A stretch of 35,554 nt of DNA. Origin: Candidatus Nomurabacteria bacterium GW2011_GWA2_40_9. Lineage in GTDB: Bacteria > Patescibacteriota > Minisyncoccia > Phycocordibacterales > UBA9973. Positions 27,794-35,554 of this stretch are shown here, piece by piece. Below the pieces are notes generated by a model. The model made no database searches, was not told the DNA's origin, and saw only the letters and a list, made by a program, of their open reading frames with translations. The first letter of the stretch is position 1, and every line of letters begins with the position of its first letter. Both the position numbers and the translations under genes were made by a program. The stretch lies in NCBI GenBank assembly GCA_000993955.1, contig LBZW01000002.1:1-35554 (forward strand), read 5' to 3'.

Positions 27794-28345
27794 TTAAACT
27801 TTCTTTTTAAATTTTTTAATCGCTAGCCATATGAGTGCGTCTAGAGCAAATCCAAGAATTAAAACTTTAATTAAATTATCAGCCGTTGACCAATATCTAA
27901 TAGAAGCAATAATGAGAGAAATTACTCCGCCCCAAGAAAATCCAATTGTCACAATTTCATTTGAAATAAATGCACCTAAAATAAGTGCTAGTACTCCAAA
28001 TACAACCAACATTATAAAAACATTTCTTTGGTAAATTTTTTGGGCATCATTAAAATCCTGTTGTTTAGTAAAATTTGGATCACAATATCCTTTATATATA
28101 TCTCCACTTGATACTGGTACTGGCATATTTTTCTCATAACGATAATTACCTTCATTCCATTGACCTCCTACTTTTAGACAATCTTCTTTATTATTTATAG
28201 TCTCTACTACTTGTGGTTGTAAAAAATATAAATTATAGTCTGGTTCTTTGTAAAACAAAGAAATTGTATAATTTAGAAATAAATTTAATACTATTATAAT
28301 ACCTATTATAAGCGCCCATTTTAAAACTTTTGGTTGTGTTTCCAT
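27794..28345 (-). CDS. Small multi-pass membrane protein, function unknown
   Basis: 183 residues from ATG 28345. An N-terminal helix (about residues 10-31) is followed by an extracytoplasmic stretch with two cysteines (EDCLKVGGQW and KGYCDPN, possibly a disulfide), then three membrane helices and a basic end (KKFKKKV). I do not recognise a family. A longer reading to 28468 exists, but TATACT seven bases before ATG 28345 favours the shorter, possibly leaderless form. It lies 11 bases before leuS and is probably first in that gene run. Confidence 0.7.
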   Translation of the reverse strand: METQPKVLKWALIIGIIIVLNLFLNYTISLFYKEPDYNLYFLQPQVVETINNKEDCLKVGGQWNEGNYRYEKNMPVPVSSGDIYKGYCDPNFTKQQDFNDAQKIYQRNVFIMLVVFGVLALILGAFISNEIVTIGFSWGGVISLIIASIRYWSTADNLIKVLILGFALDALIWLAIKKFKKKV

Positions 28346-28352
28346 AATATAT

Positions 28353-28358
28353 AGTATA
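28353..28358 (-). promoter_or_regulatory. -10-like TATACT before the leuS-lepA gene run
   Basis: TATACT ends seven bases before ATG 28345 on the minus strand. The genes from here to lepA are separated by 6-53 bases, so this could drive the whole run; internal promoters cannot be excluded. Confidence 0.4.
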
Positions 28359-28393
28359 TCATAATTAACAGATAAATTAATATTTAAATCAAT

Positions 28394-28831
28394 ATGCAAA
28401 AAGGACCAAAAGATTTTCCCCAAAAAATAACTGCTTGGGTCGGCTCTCCTCTGTCCCTCATCATTCATACTATATTCTTTTCTAGTATCTTTGTTTTAGG
28501 TTTTTCAGGTTTAATAAATCCTGATTATGTATTTGCTTTTACTACCAATATCCTTTCTATAGAGGCTATCTATCTTGCCATTTTTATTCAAATGACAGTG
28601 AATAGACATAGTGAAGATCTGGAAGAAGTTTCTGAAGATATAGATGAAATTCAGAAAGATGTGGAAGAGATTTCAGAAGATGTGGAAGAAATTCAGAAAG
28701 ATGTGGAAGAAATATCTGACGAAGATCAAAGTGAAGAAGAAGCAGAAAGAATAGAAATTAATAAATTTAAACACATTGAAGATACCCTCCAAGCTCTTCT
28801 ACAAGAAATCTCTGAATTGAAAAGGAAATAA
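28394..28831 (+). CDS. DUF1003-like membrane protein with acidic repeat tail
   Basis: 145 residues. Two membrane helices (about residues 20-40 and 48-68) end in AIFIQMTVNRHSEDLEE, which resembles the DUF1003 / low-affinity iron permease-like families. The second half is a highly acidic coiled coil containing two 14-residue repeats encoded by a 42-base tandem repeat (28634-28717). No catalytic motif. It is divergent from the membrane-protein gene at 28345 with 48 bases between, and convergent with ychF. Confidence 0.7.
   Translation: MQKGPKDFPQKITAWVGSPLSLIIHTIFFSSIFVLGFSGLINPDYVFAFTTNILSIEAIYLAIFIQMTVNRHSEDLEEVSEDIDEIQKDVEEISEDVEEIQKDVEEISDEDQSEEEAERIEINKFKHIEDTLQALLQEISELKRK
28634..28717 (+). 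repeat. 42-bp tandem repeat, two units, coding
   Basis: Units 28634-28675 and 28676-28717 differ at a few bases and encode acidic coiled-coil heptads (EIQKDVEEI in each). Confidence 0.8.
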
Positions 28832-28852
28832 AATTAAATTTTATTGTATTTT

Positions 28853-28885
28853 CCCCTCTCCTTTCAGGGGAAGGCGGGGGTGAGG
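28853..28885. repeat. GC-rich palindromic repeat between convergent genes
   Basis: CCCCTCTCCTTTCAGGGG followed by a GGGGTGAGG tail. It is the closest relative of the insertion at 19548-19582 in lepA. Position between the ends of two convergent genes would suit a bidirectional terminator. Confidence 0.6.
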
Positions 28886-28886
28886 T

Positions 28887-29705
28887 TTATATCTTAAACT
28901 CAATCACATCTCCGTCTTTGACTATATATTCTTTGCCTTCGGTGCGTACAGAGCCGTGTTCGCGAGCGACGGCGTAGGATCCTGCTTCTAGGAGTTTGTC
29001 ATAGGCCACCACTTCCGCCCTGATAAATTTATCTTTAAAATCAGTGTGTATAGCTGTGCCTGCGATCGGAGCGGTGCTTCCCTTCTTTATAGTCCATGCC
29101 CGTGTCTCGTCTTCTCCTGTGGTAAAGAAAGTTTCTAGATTCAAAAGTTTGTAACTTTCTTTTATCAGGTTATCGAGCCCAGTGCCAAAAAGTGGATCGA
29201 CTTCTAGATACGGACCAGGTAATTTTGAAATGAAGTCTTTATTTATGTTGTCCACCGCTTCTGAAGTATTGAGTACATACAGTGTCGGCTTTTTTATCCC
29301 CGCTTGTTCAAGTTCAAAATTTATCACTTCTATATCAAAAAGCGGGTCCACCTTGTCATGCACATGAATCATATCTTTATCTTCAAAAATTCTCACCACT
29401 TCGATGATTGCGTCCACCTCTCGTATATGAGATAGAAACTTATTACCGAGCCCTGCTCCTTCTGAAGCTCCTGCTACCAATCCTGCAATGTCCACAAACT
29501 CCACGACTGCTGGAATAGTCTTTTTAGATTTTGAAAGTTCTGACAGTTTTTGCACTCGCTCGTCTGGCACAGGCACTATGCCCACAGAAGGGTCTATAGT
29601 ACAAAATGGATAATTCTCTGCAGGCACAGATTTTTTGGTTAGCACATTAAAAAGCGTCGACTTTCCTACATTCGGCAGACCTACAATTCCGATTGATAGT
29701 GACAT
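28887..29705 (-). CDS. ychF: YchF/OLA1-type GTPase/ATPase, helical domain missing
   Basis: 272 residues against about 363 usually. G1 is GLPNVGKST, G3 DIAGLVAGASEGAGLGNKFL, and the NxxE box is NTSE. The TGS domain at the C terminus is typical (TFFTTGEDETRAWTIKKG and GKEYIVKDGDVIEFK). The antiparallel helical arm that normally follows DIEVINFEL is absent: the chain passes within about eight residues to KKPTLYVLNTSE. YchF binds ATP and ribosomes and affects stress responses. The frame is clean, so this looks like an evolved reduction and not a pseudogene. It has a TATAGT-type box just upstream. Confidence 0.92.
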   Translation of the reverse strand: MSLSIGIVGLPNVGKSTLFNVLTKKSVPAENYPFCTIDPSVGIVPVPDERVQKLSELSKSKKTIPAVVEFVDIAGLVAGASEGAGLGNKFLSHIREVDAIIEVVRIFEDKDMIHVHDKVDPLFDIEVINFELEQAGIKKPTLYVLNTSEAVDNINKDFISKLPGPYLEVDPLFGTGLDNLIKESYKLLNLETFFTTGEDETRAWTIKKGSTAPIAGTAIHTDFKDKFIRAEVVAYDKLLEAGSYAVAREHGSVRTEGKEYIVKDGDVIEFKI

Positions 29706-29745
29706 AATATAGATACTATACAGAATTTTTATAAATTAAACAATT

Positions 29746-30450
29746 TTATTTTTCAAATCCTAACCTTAACTTAAGTTGCAAAATTGTTTCAAGTTTTAGT
29801 TTTGATTTCACCCAAGCTTTTTGTTTCTCTGTTAAAAGCTCTCCCATACCACTGAGAATATTATTATCATTCATTCCTTCTAACTCTAGAATACATTTCG
29901 TAAGGAAATCCTTAAAAGACATATTTGTTCGCTCCTCTACAATTTTCTTATTAATTTCCCAATTACTTTTTGAAAAAAACCATACATCAAATATATCACG
30001 ATTTGTTTCTCCAAAACGATCATACATAGCGACGAGCTTATGTGCAAACATATCTTCTTTTACCATTACCAACATTGAAATACCATTGTAAAAACGAACT
30101 TCATATTTTGACCCGAAAATCCTACGATTAATCTCAACTTTTACATTTTGTGTATTCTTTTCTTTGTTTTTATAAGAAAGTAAAAAAAATAAATTAAATC
30201 TCTTTTTCTCTGCATCTTTTACCTCCCCATACTTCCCCACTATTTTCAAAATTTTTTCAAAAATAAAATCTTCTTTTGATTCATCAAGTAAATCAAAATC
30301 TAAATCCACAGAAAAACGAGGGAGTTCATAAAACAAAAGAGCTGCTGTCCCTCCCTTAAAACCCAAATACGGACTGATCGTGGTATCGGAATAAATATCT
30401 ATTAATATTTGTAAAATAATATTCTTGTGTATTTCGGGATTTAAAGTCAT
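29746..30450 (-). CDS. AbiEii/AbiGii nucleotidyltransferase toxin
   Basis: 234 residues. Nucleotidyltransferase fold with the family signature GFKGGTAALLFY followed by RFSVDLDFDLL (the G-G/T and DxD-type catalytic residues), then VKVEINRR and the motif MFAHKLVAMYDR. AbiEii toxins add nucleotides to tRNA or similar targets and stop growth of infected cells. It begins two bases after the AbiEi antitoxin stop, the normal order for this system. No damage is seen. Confidence 0.9.
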   Translation of the reverse strand: MTLNPEIHKNIILQILIDIYSDTTISPYLGFKGGTAALLFYELPRFSVDLDFDLLDESKEDFIFEKILKIVGKYGEVKDAEKKRFNLFFLLSYKNKEKNTQNVKVEINRRIFGSKYEVRFYNGISMLVMVKEDMFAHKLVAMYDRFGETNRDIFDVWFFSKSNWEINKKIVEERTNMSFKDFLTKCILELEGMNDNNILSGMGELLTEKQKAWVKSKLKLETILQLKLRLGFEK

Positions 30451-30452
30451 TT

Positions 30453-31019
30453 TTATTTATTTATTTGGTATTGTTTATAATATTTTTCTACTGTCTTTAC
30501 CATTTTTTTATTATTATATATTGGTAATATTTCAAATACTTTATCCCAGTCCAATTGACGAAGATTATCAAAATAATAATTTTTACTCCTATAAACTATA
30601 TCCAAAAATGCTCTTTCCCTACAAGCTATAGCGTATTGCCCACTTTGGTCTACCCCCATTGGATTAGCTAAAATTGAATCTTTCATCTTTACAAAAGAAT
30701 AAATTTGTCCATCACATTTGATTTCTCTCTTTACATAAGAAGCAACAAAAATATTTCCATAATATTGAAAAGTCATACCAGTCATACCAGAAACAGTTTC
30801 AAAGCTAACATATGAAGGTCTAAAAATCTTAGTAGCAAATTCATACTTATCATAACTTTTATCTTTTGCATAAATACCTCTACGAACTCTAATAAGCTTC
30901 CCAATTTTTACATAATAATTTAATCTTACTTGTGAAGCTGTAGTTTGGGTGTCACGCCAAAGTAAAGCAATATCTTTTGTTGAAAAGACGCTGTTTTTTG
31001 ACCTTAATAAAGTATCCAT
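30453..31019 (-). CDS. AbiEi-family antitoxin
   Basis: About 188 residues from ATG 31019. An N-terminal winged helix (LLRSKNSVFSTKDIALLW, then SQVRLNYYVKIGKLIRVRRGIYA) is followed by the AbiEi C-terminal domain with SYVSFETVSGMTG and CRERAFLDIVYRSK. The protein represses its own operon and neutralises AbiEii. ATG 31019 has AAAAGGCG a few bases upstream and gives the family-like N terminus; in-frame ATGs at 31049 and 31106 would add untypical residues. The region 31107-31252 upstream holds no gene that I can see. Confidence 0.85.
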   Translation of the reverse strand: MDTLLRSKNSVFSTKDIALLWRDTQTTASQVRLNYYVKIGKLIRVRRGIYAKDKSYDKYEFATKIFRPSYVSFETVSGMTGMTFQYYGNIFVASYVKREIKCDGQIYSFVKMKDSILANPMGVDQSGQYAIACRERAFLDIVYRSKNYYFDNLRQLDWDKVFEILPIYNNKKMVKTVEKYYKQYQINK

Positions 31020-31252
31020 ATATTCGCCTTTTTGAACTTTTGTATTCATATATCTACTGGAACTTAGGTTTAAACTAACCTCCAGTTCATATACTAGCAT
31101 AACCACTATGTAAACGCAACCTAACCAGACCTATATTGCAGACTATATATTTTCTACTGTATCAGTAACTTCTGTTATTTCGATCTGTCTTCTCCTCCGC
31201 CATCTTCAGACTGCACACTTGTACTCTGTGTTATTTGTCACACTCCCTAAAA

Positions 31253-31771
31253 TTATCTTTTTTTCTGTATTGTATTTTGACCCATTTCTAGATCTGTTTT
31301 CATAAACTTTTTCCACGACTGCTCTAGACGAAAAATCTTACCACGCACCAGAGTGTAGCGATTTATCAAATCTTCAATCAAATCTGCTTTTACTTTGTCT
31401 CCATAAGTTCCTTTGATATGATCCAGATAAACAGACACCCTATTGCATCCAGACAATGCTTTTTCTATATAGCCAAGTGCTAGCCCAAAATCTGCAAAAC
31501 GCAGTGAGTGACCTTCGCTGATATAAAGTGGAATCGCCATCGCATTTTTCGACAATTCCTCCACTCTGCTATCTTTTACTTTTTCCAAAGCAGGTACGAT
31601 ATCTTTGTCTATGAGTACAGAACATTCTAGAGTTTTTTGATACACTTCTAAATCTCTGAAACTCCTAATTGGTTTCTTGGGTGTGAATTTTGCGCCCCAG
31701 TGCCGATTTTGTCCTACGCCTGCGGCACTCCCCTTGTCCCATTTTCCTGTTATGTATTTTTGATATATCAT
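31253..31771 (-). CDS. Four-helix-bundle protein (S23 / IVP family)
   Basis: 172 residues. From residue about 36 it matches the 23S-rRNA-intervening-sequence four-helix family: RSFRDLEVYQKTLE, KNAMAIPLYISEGHS and LGYIEKALSGCNRVSVYLDHI. The related Avd protein of diversity-generating retroelements has this fold, but no reverse transcriptase is present. The N-terminal residues SAAGVGQNRHWG come from a palindromic repeat (31698-31733), not the family. It starts three bases after the nuclease gene, so the two are probably cotranslated partners. Function of stand-alone members is not known. Confidence 0.8.
   Translation of the reverse strand: MIYQKYITGKWDKGSAAGVGQNRHWGAKFTPKKPIRSFRDLEVYQKTLECSVLIDKDIVPALEKVKDSRVEELSKNAMAIPLYISEGHSLRFADFGLALGYIEKALSGCNRVSVYLDHIKGTYGDKVKADLIEDLINRYTLVRGKIFRLEQSWKKFMKTDLEMGQNTIQKKR
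31698..31733. repeat. Repeat with GTGCCG/CGGCAC ends, copy 1
   Basis: CAGTGCCG at 31698-31705 and CGGCACTCCCC near 31723-31733 form the ends. It resembles 34311-34346 and both copies are read as SA(A/T)GVG. Confidence 0.6.
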
Positions 31772-31774
31772 AAT

Positions 31775-33064
31775 TTATTTTCGCCTTATTATCTTTATCA
31801 CATCATCTTGTGGTATCTCCTCCTTGATTCCGCTTCTAAAATGTGCGTTTCTTTTTTTCTTACTCATAATCTTTTTCACTACATGCAGTGGATAAAATTC
31901 AAAATAATCCGTCTCATCGAACCACGCACACTTGAACTCATATAATCTTAGCCCCGTCAGGCGGGAGAGTGCAAGTGCATACCAAGTCAGTTGTTCTATG
32001 GGTCTTTCCTTCTTGGCTTTCGGTTTATAGTCGAGCAGATGAATTTGGCCGTTGCGAACTTGGACTAGATCAATATGACCAGTGAGAATTTCTGGGATCT
32101 GAAAGGACTCAGTGCCGATTTTGTCTTGTTTGAAATCTTTCCCTTTTGCCGATTTTTTATTTTCCCGTGCCGATCTTTTTCTAAAACTAATCCCCTCTTC
32201 GCCCACAATCTGAAAATTTAATTTATTCTGCATGTATTCTATATCTTCTCTTCTTATATACACTGGCACTTCGGTCGCCACAGTTACTGAGTCATTTGCA
32301 ATCATAAATTTTTGCACACCTTCATGTCGGTCTTTGTTTTTAGATACCCCTCGCAGAGCAAACTCCGCTAGCCGGTTGGCATAATTTGTTTTGGATGTCA
32401 CGATCATGTCTGCAGTGCTAAACATACTTCGCACATCGCTCATACGCTCGCCACTATTAAAAAATTGATGAGGTGTTTCGGTGGCTATGGCATCCAGATA
32501 TTCTTTTAGGGGATAAAAATTTCTATTTTTATAATCTTGCATCATTAATAAAATTTTCGCCTTGTGATATCGGTAACGGTATAGCTGATGATGCGCCATA
32601 GTTACCACATCTAGCACTTCCATCGGGCCAAAAAGTTTTAGTCCATAAGAACGCATTTTGTTGTAAGCACAAAGGCCGGCATATTCTTCCGCCCAGCGAG
32701 AAATAGTTTCTGGCTCGGGGCGGACTTTTTTATGCAATTGATGGATAATTCCGCAAACTTTCTCGCGGGTAAAACCGAGGTTGTAATAGCTAATAGCGTC
32801 GATGATGACTTGGAGGGGATAACGACGGCCCTTGACTGAGCTATCCGTAAAAGTTTTTTTGCATTCTATATTTCCACATTTATACAGCTGTACCACTTCG
32901 TGTTTTTTCTTGCGGGTGCCTCGACGGACAAATTTTACGCTCTCACAAAAAGGACAGGATAACTTTATGTTTTGCTCCACACGCACCCGTGGTACCTTGA
33001 GATCAATATCTGTTAGATTTTCTTTGCCGAGAATAGGGTATTCCTTGTGATTTTTGCTTGACAT
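31775..33064 (-). CDS. Zinc-ribbon and HTH head fused to a RecB-type PD-(D/E)XK nuclease
   Basis: 429 residues. Residues about 37-75 form a transposase-like zinc ribbon (CPFC at 37-40, C63 and C68 before KKTF), and 80-130 a helix-turn-helix like that of IS-type transposases (YPLQVIIDAISYYNLGFT, then ETISRWAEEYA). No DDE catalytic core follows. Instead, the C-terminal half has Cas4/RecB-like motifs: Asp332 in TGHIDLVQV, Asp345 and Lys347 in HLLDYKPKA, and QLTWYA (Q358, Y362). An insertion at about residues 296-320 is built from repeats of a TCGGCA word. The likely activity is nucleolytic, with the head recognising a DNA site; the biological role is unknown. It is followed by the four-helix gene. 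Confidence 0.75.
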   Translation of the reverse strand: MSSKNHKEYPILGKENLTDIDLKVPRVRVEQNIKLSCPFCESVKFVRRGTRKKKHEVVQLYKCGNIECKKTFTDSSVKGRRYPLQVIIDAISYYNLGFTREKVCGIIHQLHKKVRPEPETISRWAEEYAGLCAYNKMRSYGLKLFGPMEVLDVVTMAHHQLYRYRYHKAKILLMMQDYKNRNFYPLKEYLDAIATETPHQFFNSGERMSDVRSMFSTADMIVTSKTNYANRLAEFALRGVSKNKDRHEGVQKFMIANDSVTVATEVPVYIRREDIEYMQNKLNFQIVGEEGISFRKRSARENKKSAKGKDFKQDKIGTESFQIPEILTGHIDLVQVRNGQIHLLDYKPKAKKERPIEQLTWYALALSRLTGLRLYEFKCAWFDETDYFEFYPLHVVKKIMSKKKRNAHFRSGIKEEIPQDDVIKIIRRK

Positions 33065-33108
33065 TGTGTTTTGGGGTTGCTATACTTTAATCATAAACAA
33101 GAAAGAGA

Positions 33109-33136
33109 CCCTTGATATGTTACGGCATATTTGGGG
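33109..33136. terminator. Stem-loop in the gap between the NYN and nuclease genes
   Basis: CCC and ATATG arms pair with CATAT and GGG around TTACGG, with two internal mismatches. CTTTTT follows on the plus strand and a T-rich stretch on the minus strand. It lies downstream of the NYN gene, so termination of that gene is the likely use. Confidence 0.4.
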
Positions 33137-33142
33137 GCTTTT

Positions 33143-33628
33143 TCATTTTTGACGTAAATTATTTATAAATTCATCAAGAATTACTATTGGCACATTTGTT
33201 CTTTTTAATAAAAGCGAAAGATATTTTCTGTTTGGGGAAACTATACTAATGGGTATCTTTTTTTCTTTTAAAAATTCTACAATGCAATGGTAATCACCAT
33301 CTCCGGACACTAGTACAGCACTTTCTAGTTTATTTTCATAAAAATTTTTTGCTATACATAAAATAAGTTCTCCATCCACATTTCCTTTTGTTCTACCCTC
33401 CTTGCTTGTGATAGTAGGTTTAAAAGAAATTTCATAGCCAATATTTTGCAAAAAATTATATAATTCAGCATTATTGGGTATGAGACCCATAAAAAGAATT
33501 GCTCTAGAAACACCAAATTTATCACGAAGCCACGAACGAAATGATTTATAATCAAGTTCCCAACCACTCTGCTTTATGCCAAATTTTAAATTTGAAGCAT
33601 CAATATATGCTGTAGTATTTTTGAGCAT
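33143..33628 (-). CDS. NYN-domain (LabA/DUF88-type) RNase-like protein
   Basis: 161 residues, a single PIN-like NYN domain. The acidic active-site residues are in AYIDASNL (Asp near residue 10), NVDGELIL and LVSGDGDYHCIVEFL. NYN proteins are metal-dependent RNases, often in defence or RNA-decay settings. With AbiE and the RecB-type nuclease nearby it may belong to an accessory defence block, but each gene may be independent. The start ATG 33628 gives the family N terminus. Confidence 0.88.
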   Translation of the reverse strand: MLKNTTAYIDASNLKFGIKQSGWELDYKSFRSWLRDKFGVSRAILFMGLIPNNAELYNFLQNIGYEISFKPTITSKEGRTKGNVDGELILCIAKNFYENKLESAVLVSGDGDYHCIVEFLKEKKIPISIVSPNRKYLSLLLKRTNVPIVILDEFINNLRQK

Positions 33629-33825
33629 AAATTTATTATACCATTTATTTCAAAATATGAAGCGTATCACGGATTATATCACGGAAACCTCGTGGTGAAA
33701 TATCACAAGTGTGTGGCAAAATCGGCCTGTCGATGCCCATCTGTGATATGATTTTGTATAAATTTTTGAAACATCTTTTCTATTTTGTCAATTTTTTTAT
33801 TTTTTTAAATTACCAATTTTTACTT
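33629..33825. other. Intergenic region without a visible gene
   Basis: Contains a direct repeat TATCACGGA spaced by TTA (about 33663-33683), further TATCACA and TGATAT words, and one AAATCGGC word shared with the nuclease gene. No open reading frame or tRNA that I can support. Confidence 0.5.
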
Positions 33826-35554
33826 TTATGGAATTACTTCTTCACTCAAATTTTCCACAGGTAACACTACTTCTTCTATTACTGGTGCAGTAACAGATGT
33901 CGGTAGTTCTACTATTTCTTCCACTGAAATATTTGTTGTTGGTATTTCTTCTCCTGTAACTTCTATGATCTCAATTTCTGGTTCAGTAGGATCACCACCC
34001 CCTGCCCCCTCCTCCACAAGGAGGGGAATAATTTCGATTTCTGATGTTGGAGTTTCTACTGGTTCTGATTTTGTTATTGGCTCCAAAGTATTTTCTGGTG
34101 GTATTATGACAACACATTCACCAGCAATTGTTTTTGTTGCTCCATTGGCAACAGAGAGACAGTACGGCTCGCCTGTGACTTCATCATACAAAGTGACACC
34201 TGTTCTTTTATCTCTACTACCTATCTTCAAAGTATCCACCACTAATCCTTTCATAAACACCACTCCATTTTCTACTTTTTTTACTACATCGCTAAAGAAC
34301 CCTGCTGCTACAGTGCCGAAATTGCCGACGCCTGTGGCACTTTCCCCCTCCATGCCTCCCTCCAGAGCCACTAACCTTTCTTCTATACCTTCAAGTTTTA
34401 AATCAAGCCCATCTATTTTTTTATTTGTAGCTTGTATTCCTAAAACCATATAACCTAGAGTATTAACTGGATTCACTATTGTTCCGTTAAAATGCATTGC
34501 CCACTGTGCTTCGTCTGCCATCACACCTACATATTCTGTAGTGCTATCTCCAGTTCCCATTTTTGGTTTGTAATGGAAGCGATAGATTTTGGTTCCTAGA
34601 ATTTGATCCAAGGCTACATTTGCATCGGTGACCTCTCCAGAAATATCTTTCATACTGCGCAAAGACCCAGCCGCCGCCCAAGAAGTGATACCCGCTCCAT
34701 CCGTCTGAAGTTGTTGTCCAGCGTCACCATCAACATCGGGAAGAGTGAGAGTCCAACTTCCAGCCGCGGCAGCGGGCTGTAATTGCACATACCCTGACGT
34801 GTTTCCTTCGAGACGAAGTGTGCCCAATGTGGTGCCGGCAAGACCAATGTCTAATTTTGCTCCAGGACTCGTCGTCCCGATGCCGACGTTGCCGTTTTTT
34901 AGTGTCACCGTATCGACCAATGTATCGCCAGTTGTCATTGACTGCAAAGTTAAACGAGCCCCAGTAAAACTTGCATCATTAAAAGCCGTATAAATTCTTC
35001 CAGCACGATTAAAGCTATCTGTTCCATAAGGAGCGTAGAAAGTAAATCCCGTTTCTTCACCTTGGTCCCCGACCCCTTGAAGTCGAAGAATCGAATTGCC
35101 AGTTCCTGTGTCCGCCTGATAAATATGCAATTTGCTATTTGGACTCGTCGTCCCGATGCCGACATTGCCTGTGCTTAAAATTCTCATTCGTTCCAAATAT
35201 CCATCTGCTGCTCTGGTTCCAAACGCTATATCCGCATAATGGCTTGTTCTATTAGTTAAAACAGCAGCTATTGTAGCTGAAGCACCGCTTCCACTGGCTG
35301 TATTATCTCCAAAATTTATACCCGCAAGATTACCAGTAGTAGCACTTGTGTTATTTATAGATAGTCCGACTGCATTTGTAATAGTTGTTCCAGCGGAAAC
35401 CCCATCGAACGCTCCAGCATCACCTGTACTTACAACATGTAATGTTCTACTCGGCCCCGTCGTCCCGATGCCGACGTTGCCGTCATTTAATATCGTGACC
35501 TTTTCTGTTGGAGCGTTGTCAGCTGTGCCAGTACTTCCTGCTGTTGCTGTGTAG
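33826..35554 (-). CDS. Repetitive surface or fibre protein with S74-like chaperone region (5' end outside window)
   Basis: The frame is open to the right edge, giving about 575 visible residues. It carries GNVGIGTTSP-type beta repeats (three in view), as found in phage tail fibres and CPR surface proteins, each followed by a (K/R)LxI-type strand. Residues encoded around 34665-34356 (LRSMKDISGEVTDANVALDQI, then VGVMADEAQ) resemble the Peptidase_S74 intramolecular chaperone, followed by a coiled coil. After it comes a beta-like segment (GVTLYDEVTGEPYCLSVAN) and an acidic Thr/Glu/Val-rich tail. The tail includes PLLVEEGAGGG, coded by a palindromic repeat. It is probably exported and trimeric; attachment is the likely role. 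Confidence 0.75.
   Translation of the reverse strand, partial: YTATAGSTGTADNAPTEKVTILNDGNVGIGTTGPSRTLHVVSTGDAGAFDGVSAGTTITNAVGLSINNTSATTGNLAGINFGDNTASGSGASATIAAVLTNRTSHYADIAFGTRAADGYLERMRILSTGNVGIGTTSPNSKLHIYQADTGTGNSILRLQGVGDQGEETGFTFYAPYGTDSFNRAGRIYTAFNDASFTGARLTLQSMTTGDTLVDTVTLKNGNVGIGTTSPGAKLDIGLAGTTLGTLRLEGNTSGYVQLQPAAAAGSWTLTLPDVDGDAGQQLQTDGAGITSWAAAGSLRSMKDISGEVTDANVALDQILGTKIYRFHYKPKMGTGDSTTEYVGVMADEAQWAMHFNGTIVNPVNTLGYMVLGIQATNKKIDGLDLKLEGIEERLVALEGGMEGESATGVGNFGTVAAGFFSDVVKKVENGVVFMKGLVVDTLKIGSRDKRTGVTLYDEVTGEPYCLSVANGATKTIAGECVVIIPPENTLEPITKSEPVETPTSEIEIIPLLVEEGAGGGDPTEPEIEIIEVTGEEIPTTNISVEEIVELPTSVTAPVIEEVVLPVENLSEEVIP
34006..34026. repeat. GC-rich palindrome in the fibre-protein tail
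   Basis: CCCCTCCT (34006-34013) pairs with AGGAGGGG (34019-34026) around CCACA. It encodes part of PLLVEEGAGGG. Confidence 0.65.
34311..34346. repeat. Repeat with GTGCCG/GGCAC ends, copy 2
   Basis: Similar to 31698-31733 over about 36 bases, with small differences in the middle. It is read in frame as SATGVGNFGT in the fibre protein. Confidence 0.55.
34865..35483 (-). repeat. Dispersed direct repeats coding for GNVGIGTT motifs
   Basis: About 30 bases are repeated at 34865-34895, 35141-35169 and 35452-35483, spaced by roughly 276 and 310 bases. They encode the GNVGIGTT(S/G)P modules. Confidence 0.8.

Follow-up and report, generated by a model that had tools for sequence, protein, structure and literature searches.

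A RecB/Cas4-type nuclease gene and its S23-family partner behind tail-fibre-like repeat genes of Patescibacteria: a possible homing-type module

Dassa et al. reportedly described, in a 2009 Nucleic Acids Research paper cited in PMC3229294, fractured genes in which split inteins are accompanied by a free-standing homing endonuclease. Proteins of the IVP (S23) family are known inside rRNA insertions of candidate phyla radiation (CPR) bacteria (PMC11270868). Here we analysed two adjacent genes, P1 and P2, on the reverse strand of a 35,554-nucleotide stretch of Candidatus Nomurabacteria bacterium GW2011_GWA2_40_9 (contig LBZW01000002.1, positions 1 to 35,554; hereafter the window), and compared them with these and other systems. 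P1 (31775–33064, an open frame of 429 residues) joins a zinc-ribbon/helix-turn-helix (HTH) head to a RecB/Cas4-type PD-(D/E)XK nuclease, and P2 (31253–31771, an open frame of 172 residues) is an S23/IVP-like four-helix-bundle protein; the coordinates of both frames, and the 3-base gap between them, were confirmed. We found that the constant neighbour of P1-P2 is an upstream tail-fibre-like repeat gene. As the pair is almost always found behind, or intein-nested within, this one kind of surface gene, it looks like a gene-hopping module, and we lean, with somewhat better than even confidence, towards P1-P2 being a Patescibacterial homing-type mobility module aimed at the repeat gene.

A tail-fibre-like repeat gene and its inteins

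The 3' part of the repeat gene, which is Peptidase_S74-like and carries NVGIGTT repeats, occupies 33826–35553 on the reverse strand and runs off the window end. Twenty-seven loci are near-intact and have at least 1 kb of upstream DNA; in 25 of them a same-strand NVGIGTT-repeat/S74-type tail-fibre-like gene lies upstream of P1, either within 2.1 kb or fused to it, L019 being the fused case counted as positive. L018 has no upstream repeat gene, and the upstream DNA of L034 ends in a Pro/Ala/Thr-rich coding sequence that may be a repeat-gene tail. Outside the window all loci come from draft assemblies, several of which end in the repeats, and gene calls are plain open reading frames (ORFs).

The initial annotation had correctly described the layout of the pair and its neighbours, a NYN-domain gene (33143–33628, reverse strand, 161 residues) and AbiEi/AbiEii genes (29746–31106), but it overlooked the upstream repeat gene and the inteins of relatives. 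It placed P1-P2 in a block with AbiE and a NYN RNase, and proposed a defence or genome-editing module or a domesticated transposon. The link to NYN and to mobile DNA holds. Membership of an AbiE defence block is not supported, as AbiE is not conserved beside P1: a similar AbiEi-like ORF was found in only one other locus, L071. A role in anti-phage defence or addiction, with P1 as an effector nuclease regulated by P2 on an island with NYN, AbiE, PemK and HicAB, would suit a weak PADLOC match to a Cas4-like nuclease and the recurrence of toxin/antitoxin-type genes around P1. We nevertheless consider it improbable, since AbiE is not retained, defence-type neighbours differ between loci while the repeat gene and P2 persist, and the intein-nested position described below would be unusual for a defence gene. 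BRO-N, PemK, HicB-like and IVP genes behave as variable passengers, lying between P1 and P2 (L032, with BRO-N, and L037) or before P1 (L020, L022).

In eight related loci, intein halves flank P1-P2. Both halves are visible in five of these (L021, L024, L065, L067, L069), and one half is present on the contig in the others: the C half in L025 and L032, where the contig begins, and the N half in L026, where the contig ends. Profiles of both halves revealed the arrangement: the N half ends the upstream repeat ORF, P1-P2 follow, and the C half opens the downstream ORF. In L025 and L032 the repeat-protein frame directly after P2 opens with an intein C half (PF14890, E-values 4e-8 and 7e-12). L032 also has a GIY-YIG domain, a recognised homing-nuclease family, fused ahead of P1. 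A profile search of the window found no intein half, so an intein was rejected there; the window's module stands free, downstream of the repeat gene. Mapped on the P1 tree, the intein-nested state requires six changes, at least five of them forced by starred branches, and shows no significant clustering (values as low in 82 of 500 shuffles). The repeat gene, rather than the intein, is therefore the constant.

Complete inteins of the same family were found in NVGIGTT repeat ORFs, four in a single ORF of G456 (L165) and two in G219 (L169), and further ones occur in G398, G437 and G276. The L165 ORF (contig C7, 4493–11338) encodes a 2281-residue repeat protein whose four complete inteins carry differing cargo, one of them NYN. 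Most of the junctions seen share a fixed point: eleven of the N-junctions listed lie 18 residues after NVGIGTT, including those of the P1-P2-bearing split inteins of L024 and L026, and the remaining listed ones fall elsewhere in the host protein, in S74 or other regions. Where another repeat follows, the C-junction lies 5 residues before it, and the +1 residue is Thr. Three complete inteins hold NYN domains between their splicing halves, 27–35% identical to the window NYN, and relatives of the window NYN sit inside split or complete same-family inteins of other genomes. Thus, one type of site carries NYN and P1-P2 as its cargo, either in place of each other or together.

A Pretoxin-HINT (PF07591) match in some of these inteins, together with the diversity of the nuclease cargo, could point to a polymorphic-toxin-like system in which the Hint/intein frees a nuclease (NYN, P1) borne by the tail-fibre-like surface protein. 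The +1 Thr and the continuing C-extein after the inteins argue for splicing rather than release, however, P1 is usually a separate ORF, and S23 is, to our knowledge, not an immunity fold; we judge this reading highly improbable. Our literature search found nothing on inteins in Patescibacterial surface genes. Two further observations concern other genes. The genome from which the window comes carries an intein of another kind, LAGLIDADG-like by eye, in an FtsH-like ATPase gene (L164, G000:C37), and in a leucyl-tRNA synthetase ORF of L031 (9721–12783, reverse strand) a DUF559 nuclease domain lies in frame, which may be a further nuclease of homing type that was inserted.

The P1 nuclease and its partner P2

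The zinc ribbon of P1 (residues 37–68; 32861–32956, reverse strand) has the form CPxC...C..C and matches NF050000, the IS1/IS1595 zinc domain (E = 3e-5), but the match falls short of that profile's cut-off. It is followed by a helical HTH-like region (residues 84–127; 32684–32815, reverse strand) in which W124 is invariant, and residues 77–134 weakly match the HTH region of IS6 (E = 0.01). The nuclease core (residues 243–383; 31916–32338, reverse strand) matches PF12705 above its gathering score (E = 3e-5), and all 14 aligned P1 homologues match this profile. Across 31 homologues C37, C40, C63, C68, H247, E265, D332, D345 and K347 are invariant, while Q358 and Y362 are kept in 30, the remaining row being a gap there. 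The AlphaFold2 (AF2) model, built from an alignment of 14 sequences, is of moderate confidence (predicted local distance difference test (pLDDT) 71), and its C-terminal half resembles a PD-(D/E)XK fold; the best PDB neighbours are AddAB, RecB, Cas4 and MGME1 nucleases, all weak matches (E 0.01–0.3). P1 thus has the D...DxK...QxxxY motifs and core fold that define the RecB/Cas4-type PD-(D/E)XK class, with weak PDB matches. The initial reading of the domain anatomy, a zinc-ribbon/HTH head joined to a catalytic part that is PD-(D/E)XK (D332, D345, K347, Q358, Y362) and not DDE, is upheld.

An IS1/IS1595-type zinc ribbon might also be expected of a domesticated transposon remnant, in which the insertion-sequence (IS)-like head now regulates the repeat gene or the module and the nuclease is secondary. 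In five loci the module is preceded by operator-like repeats, which would agree with this. As the nuclease residues are invariant wherever covered, however, catalysis is probably retained, and no DDE transposase domain of any Pfam or NCBIfam family was matched in P1 beyond the head region; we hold a remnant to be more improbable still than toxin release. The repeats in question lie in an 88-bp conserved non-coding element ahead of the module (33663–33750, reverse strand), with ATATCAC(R)G motifs repeated in both orientations. It is present in all five loci of the window clade, its 22-base signature occurs once in the window genome, and a TATAAT lies just downstream (about 33635–33640), shortly before the NYN start. 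From these features, the element is probably the promoter/operator of the module.

P2 yielded an AF2 model of a four-helix bundle with core pLDDT mostly above 90, and its top PDB matches are the S23-family proteins 2rld and 2gsc, in agreement with its initial assignment as an S23-type four-helix-bundle partner. P2 itself has no Pfam match; 23S_rRNA_IVP (PF05635) matches 7 of 15 P2 relatives, at best with an E-value of 8e-5, the window P2 not being among them. The likeness to Avd, an accessory of retroelements, did not extend to the locus: RVT_1 (reverse transcriptase) is absent from the window genome and from 12 of 19 P1 genomes, and never occurs on the contig of P1. The reading as part of a diversity-generating retroelement (DGR) was therefore rejected.

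P1 and P2 are a real, co-diverging pair. P2 is the same-strand neighbour of P1 in 30 of the 31 loci whose downstream DNA is long enough, so the two are conserved as neighbours across genomes. L029 is the sole locus with no P2 beside P1, and a search there for a P2 remnant gave nothing convincing; in L071 the gene order is reversed. P1 and P2 distances among 18 representatives correlate (r = 0.80; none of 5000 permutations as high). In a sample of 380 genomes, P2 matches below 1e-40 are confined to those carrying P1, and the distant S23 genes of other genomes sit among unrelated genes. The idea that P2 is simply any S23 gene was accordingly discarded, genomes lacking P1 carrying only distant, stand-alone S23 genes. 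Within the window clade both genes are under purifying selection, with dN/dS at or below 0.08 for those pairs in which dS is finite and estimable, synonymous sites being saturated otherwise.

An identical 15-mer, ACAAAATCGGCACTG, lies in the linker regions of P2 (31698–31712) and P1 (32110–32124), on the reverse strand. Similar K/NIGTG-coding inserts occur in the P1, P2 and inteins of relatives. A genome-wide repetitive extragenic palindromic (REP) element was rejected as its source, as exact copies in the window genome are confined to P1 and P2. Further afield, a gene resembling REP-associated Y1-type transposases was recognised by eye at 1639–2343 on the reverse strand of the window, and a similar gene of L035 matches Y1_Tnp. 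No Rfam match to a structured RNA was found within 28000–35554.

Module-free sites and a conserved DNA word

Patescibacteria assigned to several named phyla contain P1 homologues, as does one Planctomycetota (Anammoxibacter) metagenome-assembled genome. The homologues are patchily distributed, being present in 10 of 60 congeners and 12 of 100 relatives, with strong matches in 9 of 380 genomes of the phylum. An origin of P1 in phages or plasmids was rejected, with no match in either collection; 15 pattern matches in viral contigs included no relative. At module-free sites of congeners (L130, L134–L137) the repeat gene is followed directly by a signal-peptide or TPR gene, and the same gene follows P2 in the occupied genomes L031, L033, L037 and L038, where flanking homology resumes shortly after P2. 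Since occupied and module-free loci come from different species, these comparisons do not fix its exact borders. The window and L015 have NYN-P1-P2 in common (77.6% identity over 2.4 kb) and diverge after P2.

A selfish module that homes to the repeat gene would explain the nuclease, the DNA-binding head, the intein nesting, the patchy spread and the module-free sites. In this scheme P1 would use its zinc ribbon/HTH to bind DNA and its PD-(D/E)XK domain to cut it at or near the repeat gene in module-free chromosomes. Repair with an occupied copy as template would transfer P1-P2, along with the flanking split intein where one is present, and P2 would assist P1, either structurally or by binding nucleic acid.

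Several points weigh against this explanation. Free copies stand behind the host gene and not within it, the window itself being one without an intein, and some of the 'free' labels are uncertain as the contigs end there (L018, L072). The sites compared come from different species and not from sister strains. Cutting by P1 at a defined site is a prediction, and RecB/Cas4-type nucleases are usually not sequence-specific. This class also lies outside the standard homing families HNH, His-Cys, GIY-YIG and LAGLIDADG (2020 intein review, PMC7765530). Finally, long purifying selection would also fit a role that serves the host.

The word GNVGIGTT is encoded by the 24-bp sequence GGCAACGTCGGCATCGGGACGACG, which occurs exactly at 34870–34893 and 35458–35481 and with one mismatch at 35146–35169, all on the reverse strand. 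Consensus codons are used at 72–90% of 126 GNVGIGTT sites versus 17–39% elsewhere in the same genes; the word is conserved as nucleotides in Patescibacteria, far beyond codon usage. With up to two mismatches, the 24-mer was found in 41 of 380 genomes, while none of the matches listed came from the reversed control. Viral contigs (31–66% G+C; loci L194 onward) contain at least 120 stretches with an exact copy, always in the GNVGIGTT frame. Six of the 9 strong-P1 genomes contain the word versus 35 of the 371 others (p = 7e-5), an enrichment expected from the linkage of P1 to the repeat gene. As the word is also present where P1 is absent, it was rejected as a P1-specific target. We found nothing on it in the literature searched.

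These observations bear on the main rival, in which P1-P2 serve the host by cutting or guiding recombination among NVGIGTT repeats to vary the surface protein, with split inteins allowing trans-spliced combinations. A repeat-rich surface-type gene as the constant neighbour, strong purifying selection on both P1 and P2, constraint on the repeat word at the DNA level and several inteins within one host protein all speak for such a role. We nonetheless regard it as unlikely, as P1 is missing from most of the genomes that have the word, and none of the many viral contigs with the word gave a P1 relative. A broader proposal, which we consider rather doubtful, counts P1-P2 among a class of systems for which GGCAACGTCGGCATCGGGACGACG, common to phage and Patescibacterial tail-fibre-like genes, serves as an address for recombination or homing; the protein repeat would then be conserved as DNA because the word is a site of mobility or diversification. 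Our findings point to a coding repeat constrained at the DNA level across bacteria and viruses, and suggest that inteins, with their cargo, have invaded Patescibacterial tail-fibre-like surface genes repeatedly.

Comparison with known systems

Our literature search found no RecB/Cas4-type nuclease with an IS-like head and an S23 partner in a homing role. If P1-P2 do act as a homing module, homing elements would gain a class of PD-(D/E)XK nucleases of RecB/Cas4 type that bear an IS-like head, together with an S23-family helper, and the unexplained S23 family would gain a testable context.

P1 shares its catalytic motifs and predicted core fold with RecB, AddAB and Cas4 nucleases, but it has a zinc ribbon/HTH head, and no helicase or CRISPR partners were seen. 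Its zinc ribbon and HTH-like head resemble those of IS1, IS1595 and IS6 transposases, whereas its catalytic part is PD-(D/E)XK with no DDE domain detected. P2 has the fold and the FxDLxVYQ-type motif of S23/IVP proteins (PF05635, TIGR02436), which are likewise tied to insertion elements (PMC11270868), but it forms a distinct clade linked to P1 and located outside rRNA. Avd of diversity-generating retroelements is also a four-helix bundle beside a surface-type gene, although P1-P2 have no reverse transcriptase nearby. The fractured genes with split inteins resemble the eight intein-flanked loci, in which a host gene is split between intein halves and a nuclease gene lies in the gap, as is not so in the window. 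Here, however, the nuclease is of RecB/Cas4 type with an IS-like head and an S23 partner, the hosts are Patescibacterial surface repeat genes, and most copies, including that of the window, stand without an intein.
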